62,845 bases of DNA from NCBI GenBank assembly GCA_017883235.1, contig JADGNY010000018.1, positions 1 through 62,845 of the forward strand, read 5' to 3'. Below the pieces are notes generated by a model that was given only the letters and a program-made list of their open reading frames with translations, did not search any database and was not told where the DNA came from. This stretch comes from Thermoanaerobaculia bacterium (GTDB lineage: Bacteria; Acidobacteriota; Thermoanaerobaculia; Gp7-AA8). A program made the position numbers and the translations under genes. Shown here piece by piece: positions 36,058-39,112 of this stretch (position 1 is the stretch's first letter; each line of letters starts with the position of its first letter).

Positions 36058-36338
36058 CGATCGATCGACGTTTGATCGACGTCAATCAATTTTTGATCGA
36101 CATCGATCAACTCTTGATTGAAAGGGATCAATTTTTGATCCCCATCGATCAACTTTCGATTGAAAGGGATCAATTTTTGATCTCCATCGATCAACTTTCG
36201 ATCGACGTCAATCAACTCTCGATCGATGTCAATCAACTTTCGATCGACGTCGATCAACTTTCGATTGAAAGGGATCGATTTTTGATCCCTATCGATCAAC
36301 TTTCGATTGAAAGGGATCGATTTTTGATCCCCATCGAT
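36058..36338. repeat. 21-bp tandem array B
   Basis: About 13 units with an exact 21-bp period, e.g. gatcaactttcgattgaaag(g) alternating with gatcaatttttgatccccat(c) and gatcaactttcgatcgacgt(c). The alternating units form a 42-bp higher-order repeat in part of the array. The DNA is AT-rich. Both strands are open (DQLSIDV heptads on plus, KLIDVDR heptads on minus). No credible ribosome binding site. Sequence is unrelated to arrays A and C apart from the recurrent gatc. Confidence 0.92.
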
Positions 36339-36439: not shown

Positions 36440-36468
36440 TTGACATCGCGCTACTACATTTGTAGTAT
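36440..36468 (+). promoter_or_regulatory. Promoter with BlaI-type operator
   Basis: A -35 box ttgaca at 36440-36445 and a -10-like tagtat at 36463-36468 are 17 bases apart. A perfect palindrome tactaca-tt-tgtagta (36452-36467) overlaps the -10. It matches the TACA/TGTA half-sites bound by BlaI/MecI repressors, so the operon is probably self-repressed. It ends eight bases before the repressor ATG. Confidence 0.85.
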
Positions 36469-36475
36469 TACGCGC

Positions 36476-36850
36476 ATGGCAACGGAACGCATCCAGCTCA
36501 CGAAGTTCGAGACCGAGGTGATGAGCGTTCTCTGGCGCCTCGGCGAAGCGACCGTCCGTGACGTGCAGGACGCCATCGACCGCGACGAACGTCCGGCCTA
36601 CACCACCGTTCAGACCATCGTGCAGCGTCTGGAGCAGAAAGGCGCCGTCCGCAGAACGCGGAAAGAGGGCAACGCCCTCTTCTTCGAGCCGGCCATCACT
36701 CGCAAATCCGTCTACCGGCGTCTGGTCGATGAGCTACTCGACCTCGTGGGGGGCTCGCGGCCACTCGTGGCGCATCTCGTCGAGAGCGGCAAACTCTCCC
36801 TCGACGATCTCAAGGCCATCGAGAAGGCGGCAAAAAAGGGATCGAAATGA
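36476..36850 (+). CDS. BlaI/MecI-family repressor
   Basis: 124 residues from the ATG at 36476. Winged-helix N-terminal domain (LTKFETEVMSVLWRLGEATVRDVQ, then YTTVQTIVQRLEQKGAVRR) and a C-terminal dimerisation segment (VYRRLVDELLDLVGGSRPL). In BlaI the repressor is cut when the partner metalloprotease BlaR1 senses its ligand. The gene overlaps its partner by four bases and lies behind its own operator. Confidence 0.95.
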   Translation: MATERIQLTKFETEVMSVLWRLGEATVRDVQDAIDRDERPAYTTVQTIVQRLEQKGAVRRTRKEGNALFFEPAITRKSVYRRLVDELLDLVGGSRPLVAHLVESGKLSLDDLKAIEKAAKKGSK

Positions 36851-38067
36851 TCGCGCACCTTCTCGAGTCAACGCTGCTCCTGGCCATTGCCATCCTCGTC
36901 GCGCACGTGCCGAGGCTGGCGGCGCGGACACGGTATGCGATTGTGTTCACGGCGCTCATGAAGTTCGCCATCCCCTCGGCGATCGTGCCGCGCATGCTCG
37001 CGCTCTTCGGTATCGATCTGACCCGGATGCCGAAGGGGACGATCCTCATCGAGGTGCTGGGCCCCCTCACCACCGCGAACCTTCCCGCGACGGTCGCGCC
37101 GTTCTGGCCTGCCGCGGTAACGGCGATGTGGCTCGTGATCGCTGCAGCGCTCCTGGCGCGCTCTCTCATCCGCGGGAATGAAGGCATGCGGCTCGCGCTA
37201 TCCAACGCGCTCGATGCGGATGAACGCGAGCTGGCCGTGCTGGCGCGTGCCCGCTCACGCGCGGGCGTCACCGGCGCCGTCCGCCTGGTCCGCTCGCCGT
37301 CGATCACCACTCCGGTGACGGCGGGGCGCCTTCGGGAGGTCATCGTCATCCCTGCCGGCGCGGAACTCGGTGATACCGAGCTGGAAGCAATCCTGACGCA
37401 TGAATGCGCGCATATCGCGCGGCACGACAATCTTCTCGGCATCCTCGAATCGATCGCCGGCTGCGCGCTCTGGTTTCACCCGCTGATCTGGATCGCCCGG
37501 CGCGTGCTCGATGCAGCGCGCGAGGAAGCCTGCGACGCGGCCGTCATCACCTCGGGCGACGCCGGCGTCTATGTCACCGCCCTCGGCAAGGTCTGCGGCG
37601 CGGCCGTCGCTCCGCACACCGTGGGCATTTCCTGCATCGTCAGCAACACAATCCGCGAAAGGATGGAGGCCATCATGAGTTTCGGAACACGCCGTCTTCT
37701 CCCCCACCGTGCAGTCACAGCAACCGTCATGTTTCTTCTTGTCGCCGTCACGATCGGTTCGGGCGTTGCGCGCGCCTTGCCATCCAGCGAGCGGCCGGCC
37801 GCGCGCACGACCGCGGCAGTTCCCAGCAGTCCCCTGTCCAGCGACGAAAACATTTCTCTCGACTTGAAAGACGCCGACCTCCGCGATGTTCTCAGCACCT
37901 TCTCGAAGTTGGCGAAGATCGAGATCGTTGCCGATGACGACGTCTCGGGCAAGGTGACCATTTCGCTTCACGACGTACCGTGGAAAGAGGCATTCGCAAA
38001 GATCCTCGACGACGCGAATCTCCGCCAGGAGCAGACCGGCGCCACGATCCGCGTACACCGCAAGTGA
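36847..38067 (+). CDS. M56 (BlaR1-like) metalloprotease with a C-terminal STN domain
   Basis: 406 residues. N-terminal helices (about 1-20, 30-50 and 90-115), the cytoplasmic zinc protease domain with H185-E186-C-A-H189 (THECAHIARHDNL), then a fourth helix (about 290-310, VMFLLVAVTIGSGVA). Instead of the penicillin-binding sensor of BlaR1, the outside part is a linker and a domain at 335-406 (SLDLKDADLRDVLSTFSKLA, GKVTISLHDVPWKEAF) that matches the STN/secretin N-terminal fold found in PilQ and TonB receptors. It should cleave BlaI on a signal sensed by the STN domain; that signal is unknown. Confidence 0.88.
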   Translation: MIAHLLESTLLLAIAILVAHVPRLAARTRYAIVFTALMKFAIPSAIVPRMLALFGIDLTRMPKGTILIEVLGPLTTANLPATVAPFWPAAVTAMWLVIAAALLARSLIRGNEGMRLALSNALDADERELAVLARARSRAGVTGAVRLVRSPSITTPVTAGRLREVIVIPAGAELGDTELEAILTHECAHIARHDNLLGILESIAGCALWFHPLIWIARRVLDAAREEACDAAVITSGDAGVYVTALGKVCGAAVAPHTVGISCIVSNTIRERMEAIMSFGTRRLLPHRAVTATVMFLLVAVTIGSGVARALPSSERPAARTTAAVPSSPLSSDENISLDLKDADLRDVLSTFSKLAKIEIVADDDVSGKVTISLHDVPWKEAFAKILDDANLRQEQTGATIRVHRK

Positions 38068-38097: not shown

Positions 38098-38607
38098 ATG
38101 GCCCTCGCACCGCGCCAGACGCGGTTTCTCATCGTTTTTGCCGTCCTTCTCATCGCCTTTTACGCGATCATCACCATCGGCGCCGTCGACAAGCGGGTGG
38201 TACTCCCCTTCACGGCCGTGCTGGCACGTATCTCCGGTGCGGCCCTGAACCTGATCGGAGAACGTGTAGCGGTGAGCGGCACCGTGATCGCCGGCGCCCG
38301 GTTCGCCGTCGACATCCGCGGCGGTTGCAATGGTCTCGAAGCCGTGGTCTTCGTCTGCGCGGCCATGCTGGCCTTTCACGCGCCGCTGCGGAAGCGCATC
38401 GTCGGCGCGCTGGCCGCGGCCCTGATCCTCGAAGCGCTGAACGTGATCCGGATCGACTCGCTCTACCTCCTGGGCGTCTATCACCGCAACGTCTTCGAGA
38501 TGTTCCATCTCGCGGTCTGGCAGACGCTGATGTTCGGCGCGGCGGTCTTCCTCTTCCTCATCTGGACTTCGATCGTGGCACCGCGCAATGCTCCCGCGAG
38601 CACTTAG
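38098..38607 (+). CDS. xrtH: Exosortase H
   Basis: 169 residues, multi-pass membrane protein. The exosortase catalytic triad is visible: C77 in RGGCNGLEAV, R118 in LNVIRI and H137 in FEMFHLAVWQ. Length and the GVYHRNVFEMFH pattern fit exosortase H, which processes proteins with an IPTL-type C-terminal sorting signal. It is followed by its usual membrane partner with a 20-base overlap. No protein with such a C-terminal tail is encoded in this window. Confidence 0.88.
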   Translation: MALAPRQTRFLIVFAVLLIAFYAIITIGAVDKRVVLPFTAVLARISGAALNLIGERVAVSGTVIAGARFAVDIRGGCNGLEAVVFVCAAMLAFHAPLRKRIVGALAAALILEALNVIRIDSLYLLGVYHRNVFEMFHLAVWQTLMFGAAVFLFLIWTSIVAPRNAPAST

Positions 38608-39112
38608 GTTTCTGGCCGGCCTCGCCCTTGGCGTCTCGATCTGGTGGATGGCCGCACCGGCCTACAACTACCTGCTCGCTCCCGCCACGCAACTGCTGCT
38701 GCACGCCGACCGGCGGCTGGCCGCCGCGGCGCTGTTGCCGCAGGAGCGCAACGTCTTCGTGACGTCGTCGACACCGCTGCCGACGGCGACGATGCCGGCC
38801 GATCAGATCACCTACAACATCATTCTGCTGCTGGCTCTCTTCGCGTCGAACGACAGGCCGTGGCGCCTGGCGAACGTGCGCGGACTGGCCATCGCCCTGC
38901 TGATCCTTTTCGTCTCACACTGCACCGGTCTGTTGATCTCGATCGAATCGACCTATGCCGTTCGTCAGGGAGTTTGGAGCGAGCAGCACTACGGCGAAGC
39001 GGCGGCGAGCTTCTGGCTGACGACCGAGCTGGTCTTCCGTATCGTCGGCATGTTCGGCGTGGTCTTCGCCTCCTGGTGGGCGCTCAGTCACTCGAAGAGC
39101 GTGTCGACGTAG
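38588..39112 (+). CDS. Exosortase H-associated membrane protein
   Basis: 174 residues. Helices at about 8-30, 75-90, 96-118 and 142-165. Periplasmic segment 35-70. Its position directly after xrtH and its layout match the membrane protein known to accompany exosortase H. Its 3' end overlaps the 3' end of ftsY on the other strand by 25 bases, so the stops lie inside each other. Confidence 0.75.
   Translation: MLPRALRFLAGLALGVSIWWMAAPAYNYLLAPATQLLLHADRRLAAAALLPQERNVFVTSSTPLPTATMPADQITYNIILLLALFASNDRPWRLANVRGLAIALLILFVSHCTGLLISIESTYAVRQGVWSEQHYGEAAASFWLTTELVFRIVGMFGVVFASWWALSHSKSVST

Follow-up and report, generated by a model that had tools for sequence, protein, structure and literature searches.

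An M56 metalloprotease encoded next to a BlaI-type repressor in a draft genome of Acidobacteriota (6.92 Mb in 246 contigs) ends in a single STN/secretin N0 domain of the PilQ type, which takes the place of the antibiotic sensor of BlaR1. The locus occupies positions 36440-38067 of the window, i.e., of the whole 62,845-nucleotide stretch of DNA that was analysed. BlaI/M56 pairs are widespread, and to our knowledge a ligand has been established mainly for the beta-lactam sensors among them. The kind of switch described here is known; the PilQ-type N0 domain as its sensor is new, and the function that we infer for it is testable. Because the sensor points back to one specific component of a machine, PilQ N0, whose binding partner (PilP) is known, the ligand of this orphan relay is directly amenable to testing. 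A PilQ-type sensor also suggests that the assembly of pili or secretins is monitored by a checkpoint acting on transcription. We found no paper describing an M56-STN fusion.

Operator, repressor and protease

The locus is a compact operon on the forward strand, in which the promoter and operator are followed by blaI and the M56-STN gene; xrtH and a gene for a 174-aa membrane protein come next. A sigma-70-like promoter (TTGACA-17-TAGTAT, 36440..36468) lies 5' of blaI, and its spacer and -10 box are overlaid by a perfect palindromic operator of the BlaI type, TACTACATTTGTAGTA (36452..36467). The blaI gene (36476..36850) codes for a repressor of 124 aa, and its stop codon overlaps the start of the fusion gene (36847..38067, 406 aa) in an ATGA. 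The exosortase H gene, xrtH (38098..38607; TIGR04177, 106.7 bits), starts 30 bases past the fusion gene and is overlapped by the membrane protein gene (38588..39112), whose product has a very weak match to XrtH-associated protein. A preliminary description, made from the sequence alone, held that operator, BlaI repressor and M56 protease are all intact; this was borne out by the perfect palindrome, by the Pfam scores of the two proteins (Penicillinase_R, 92.5 bits; Peptidase_M56, 95 bits over residues 8-236 of the fusion protein) and by the retained catalytic residues.

A search of the 6.92 Mb genome for the exact operator gives a single copy, at the blaI promoter, against 0.003 copies expected from base composition. 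The looser pattern TACTACN4GTAGTA is present as a single copy at the blaI promoter in each of G000, G007, G012 and G017; G008 has two copies, the second at the 3' end of a bioY-like gene. That second site, as well as the 2-mismatch sites on contigs C56 and C200, was judged to be due to chance. The idea that sites of the form tactaca-n2-tgtagta would define a wider regulon was thus not upheld. Since the operator search finds only its own promoter, the switch appears to regulate itself, and no further target was detected except the genes possibly co-transcribed with it. The operator is kept at the blaI promoter of relatives; operator and blaI accompany the fusion in those loci of the family that have upstream sequence, and a TTG-box/operator layout of a similar kind is found 5' of blaI in the seven loci compared. 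Only 7 bases separate the end of the -10 box from the blaI ATG (36463-36476), so that a leaderless blaI mRNA is possible. An array of approximately 12 copies of a 21-bp unit (36060-36338; consensus ATCGATCAACTTTCGATCGAC, 71% matches) is located about 115 bp 5' of the operator; relatives show no enrichment of its GATC-rich motif ahead of blaI.

BlaI is a Penicillinase_R winged-helix protein encoded next to a palindromic operator, and in this respect belongs to the BlaI/MecI repressors. Its residues His100-Leu101 (36773-36778) align to the cleavage site of MecI, which in the known system is Asn-Phe. All six aligned orthologues have Leu at the P1' position, whereas Phe is almost invariant at P1' of BlaI cleavage sites (PMC9834060); with Leu in its stead, a cut by the M56 protease between residues 100 and 101 is an inference. 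BlaI and M56 are each encoded twice in the genome, and the M56 protein of the other pair, on contig C118, is without STN.

The M56 metalloprotease core (residues 8-236, 36868..37554) has a predicted BlaR1-like fold: in structure comparison (Foldseek, VIA-align) the M56 part matches S. aureus BlaR1 with a Z score of 17.4 over 248 residues at 5.0 A. This fold, the membrane-embedded HEXXH motif and a downstream ExxxD place the protein in peptidase family M56. BlaR1 requires His201, His205 and Glu242, as well as Asp210, Tyr261 and Asp246 (PMC9834060). When the two sequences are aligned, the HECAH zinc motif H185-H189 (37399..37413) corresponds to BlaR1 His201-His205, D194 to Asp210, and E226xxxD230, 3' of the HECAH motif (37522-37536), to E242xxxD246; for Tyr261, we propose Y242 as the equivalent. 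H185, E186, H189, D194, E226, D230 and Y242 are invariant in eight orthologues. Judged by this alignment, the M56 part keeps the residues that BlaR1 needs for zinc binding and catalysis. The conserved S262-C263-(I/M)264 sits at the expected place of the autocleavage loop, a tentative assignment, as the BlaR1 sequence alignment ends before it. The generic BlaR1 model of NCBIfam gives 70.7 bits, over residues 124-303 only, far below its cut-off of 400, as would be expected of a protein that has no such sensor; neither Pfam nor NCBIfam finds a penicillin-binding (SXXK) or transpeptidase sensor in the fusion protein, whose C-terminus is STN. In an AlphaFold model (AF2, built from an 8-sequence alignment; mean pLDDT 71.8), the membrane part is predicted to end with a helix of residues 287-310 (37705..37776). 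By the topology of BlaR1 applied to this helix, the C-terminus that follows it would lie in the periplasm. The system thus shares with BlaR1/MecR1-BlaI/MecI of S. aureus and B. licheniformis (MEROPS M56) the operator-BlaI-M56 order, the HEXXH...E residues, and the Asp and Tyr helpers, but it has an N0 sensor, no penicillin-binding domain, and no adjacent beta-lactamase or PBP2a gene.

The C-terminal N0 domain

The STN/secretin N0 domain covers residues 335-406 (37849..38064). It scores 32.8 bits with Pfam STN (residues 360-403; cut-off 28.4) and 54.9 bits with the NCBIfam PilQ model over residues 334-404 (60 bits for the N0 domain). In the AlphaFold model, residues 335-405 (pLDDT about 73-87) adopt the N0 order β-α-β-β-α-β-β, and the C-terminal part aligns with N. 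meningitidis PilQ N0 at a VIA-align Z score of 11.8 (76 residues, 1.8 A, 36% identity). The fold of residues 335-406 had been singled out as the point at which the earlier reading, an STN domain in place of the antibiotic sensor, could fail; Pfam, NCBIfam, AlphaFold and VIA-align all agree on it. Solved PilQ N0 domains share 29-37% identity with this N0. The next structural matches are other secretin N0 domains and a putative anti-sigma factor, 4m0h (Z 10.1); PupR also matches (Z 9.9-10.4), at an identity of only 8%.

PilQ N0 domains of the same family score 103-112 bits on the M56-STN profile, seven of the members used to build it score 114-123 bits, and the PilQ lead-in (Y/F)xGEPIS(L/M)NLKDADL is kept in several of the orthologous fusions. 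From these scores and the shared lead-in, the N0 domain of the fusion is of PilQ type, as it is by fold. The protein itself is not a secretin: unlike PilQ, it has a single N0 on the C-terminus of an inner-membrane protease, ends after it, and has no N1, AMIN or C-terminal channel domain. Nor is it an anti-sigma factor of the FecR/FoxR type, as the remainder of the chain is M56, with no cytoplasmic anti-sigma domain.

In PilQ, N0 is bound by PilP, mainly at its first strand and first helix (PMC3441751). The fusions of the family keep 71% of the PilQ consensus in strand 1, 59% in helix 1 and 31% in the last two strands, and the invariant surface residues of PilQ helix 1 (equivalents of Lys346 and Arg350) are mostly replaced, conservatively at 346. 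The retention of strand 1 and helix 1 fits a kept PilP face, but conservation of the fold core could explain it too.

Distribution and origin of the fusions

Orthologous fusions are found in 8 of the 18 genomes of the window's family. The relatives have an extra domain of approximately 90-100 aa, predicted to be β-rich, between the last helix and N0, which the window copy is without. This domain has no match among Pfam families, and the structure comparison made for it covered mostly N0 alone. G007 encodes an M56-β-TonB_C-N0 protein; between its M56-N0 gene and xrtH there is also an M56-less TM-β-N0 copy (L061 8132-8950), which looks like a partial tandem duplication. A stand-alone β-N0 protein without M56 is encoded in G016 (L067 8005-8778), close to a gene homologous to the DUF1579 gene found beside the switch in G007 and G008.

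A survey of the phylum (E <= 1e-40) had confined the fusion to one family; this was overturned by a β-N0 profile search in the class, which found nine more M56 proteins with N0. Those of families f5 and f3 have the architecture M56-N0-TonB_C, one of them being truncated at a contig end, and those of f10 are M56-N0-N0, as assigned by Pfam in four of the nine; blaI lies directly upstream of eight of them. The search for M56-STN fusions and their neighbours that the preliminary description had proposed has yielded both family orthologues and a second M56 lineage with PilQ-type N0, mostly with TonB_C at the C-terminus and with blaI upstream, and the fusion occurs in at least two distant M56 lineages. 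One M56 protein in family f39 combines a GspD-type N0 (46.4 bits) with two TonB_C domains. Elsewhere in the phylum, M56 proteins have TonB_C, DUF3738 or coiled coils at the C-terminus; the M56-TonB_C and M56-DUF3738 proteins have the same protease with other periplasmic tails, mostly without N0, and their function is not described in the papers that we found. All surveys of the spread of M56-N0 covered Acidobacteriota.

Several further proteins were noted in these surveys. In one M56 protein (L174 1231-2988) an STN-like stretch, seen by eye and not called by Pfam, precedes TonB_C, and those of L168-L173 have a long charged coiled-coil tail at the C-terminus. Three proteins (L115 3158-4699, L118 2326-4230, L123 3370-5064) resemble, by eye, PilO-N0-N0-PilP fusions, and two esterase-like proteins (L157 1252-2943, L158 2413-3957) have a PilQ-type N0 at the C-terminus. 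Several genomes of the family also encode small proteins that resemble STN and have conserved cysteines, in the pattern QCGxxN ... VPC (L113, L114, L116, L119-L122, L124).

The M56 tree has the fusions of the family and those of the second lineage in two places, with starred branches between them; forcing both into one M56 clade costs 29.8 log units, with p-AU of 0.078, i.e., it is not rejected by the AU test. In the N0 tree of the family, M56-N0 and PilQ N0 lie on two sides of one branch (95/97), and a short N0 tree groups the N0 domains of both sets (82/92, unstarred). There may have been two captures of the domain, or one capture and a later domain swap between proteases. It is conceivable, though less likely than not, that BlaI/M56 relays have captured secretin N0 domains repeatedly (PilQ type in two lineages, and in one protein the GspD type) and make up a class of proteases that sense the state of assembly. 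If so, such relays would report the assembly of type IV pili or secretion machines to transcription, an undescribed kind of check on envelope machines.

Proposed mechanism and alternatives

The genome has a complete pilMNOPQ operon, and no pil genes were recognised adjoining the fusion. Over the genome, Pfam STN matches PilQ and the M56-STN gene only, and PilQ is the only other confident N0/STN protein (one weak GspD-N0 match, on contig C74, is below the cut-off). FoxR and PupR provide a precedent of a C-terminal periplasmic STN domain on an inner-membrane signalling protein. FoxR is the nearest that has been tested: it is protected from proteolysis when its C-terminal domain contacts the FoxA signalling domain (PMC11637429). 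This precedent, the pil operon and the contact data for PilP and PilQ N0 lead us to prefer a BlaI relay gated by N0 contact, in which the PilQ-type N0 serves as the periplasmic input, docks on the pilus machine, and BlaI is cleaved when the contact changes; we regard this as a serious possibility that falls just short of an even chance. The input is probably the state of an envelope machine rather than an antibiotic.

BlaI bound to the operator over the -10 box would repress blaI-m56, and in genus g1 probably xrtH too. The M56 protein would span the inner membrane, with the protease on the cytoplasmic side and N0 in the periplasm, docked on a type IV pilus partner, most likely either PilP, which N0 binds naturally in PilQ, or the ring formed by PilQ. 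An altered N0 contact would shift the transmembrane helices and activate the zinc site, and cleavage of BlaI would then lead to derepression. The partner, BlaI as the substrate and the co-transcription of xrtH are presumed in this scheme, as is the effect of contact on the protease, which could be activating or restraining.

The preliminary description had allowed for a secretin, a siderophore-type partner or envelope assembly as the input, and the PilQ-like domain favours the secretin and envelope-assembly direction. The siderophore-type partner fared worse. Pairing of this STN with that of a TonB-dependent transducer, as in cell-surface signalling, is very unlikely, even though the topology is that of FoxR/PupR (an inner-membrane signalling protein with a periplasmic β domain, in the relatives, and then a C-terminal STN), the fold matches PupR, and N0 is combined with TonB_C in relatives. 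FoxR and PupR differ in their output, which goes through an anti-sigma domain, where this system has an M56 protease with BlaI. Against the pairing, the sequence is PilQ-like, with the low structural identity to PupR given above, and no TonB-dependent receptor with STN, cognate or otherwise, was found in the genome by Pfam STN, PilQ being the only other confident carrier of the domain. A decayed or artefactual fusion without function could be suspected in a draft genome of so many contigs with the β domain missing from the window copy, but is scarcely credible given the orthologous fusion in 8 genomes, the invariant catalytic residues and the conserved operator.

Two other readings keep the domain functional and move the signal or the target elsewhere. 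N0 might be an assembly or docking module only, which oligomerises the protease or ties it to an envelope scaffold, with the signal sensed in the membrane, in extracellular loop 1 or in the extra β domain of relatives. Secretin STN domains do oligomerise (PMC11637429), the BlaR1 dimer has a signalling loop, EL1 (PMC9834060), and the additional β domain could be a sensor; the window copy, however, lost that domain and keeps a well-conserved N0, which is therefore the only recognisable periplasmic domain left, and we consider this reading unlikely. Somewhat less probable still is that the main substrates of the protease are envelope or pilus components, or the protease itself, with BlaI as feedback on the protease level and N0 engaged in quality control at the pilus base. 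The exact operator at its own promoter only and the non-canonical BlaI site would suit this, but nearly all of the loci checked have blaI immediately upstream, and the M56 active site of BlaR1 faces the cytoplasm (PMC9834060), which limits the access to periplasmic substrates.

As the preliminary description stated, exosortase H follows and there is no beta-lactamase gene downstream of the M56-STN gene, xrtH and the membrane protein gene being found there instead; the link with the exosortase, however, is limited to three genomes of genus g1, where xrtH is possibly co-transcribed with blaI-m56. Candidate substrates of XrtH are three proteins with IPTL-CTERM matches, encoded at other places in the genome.
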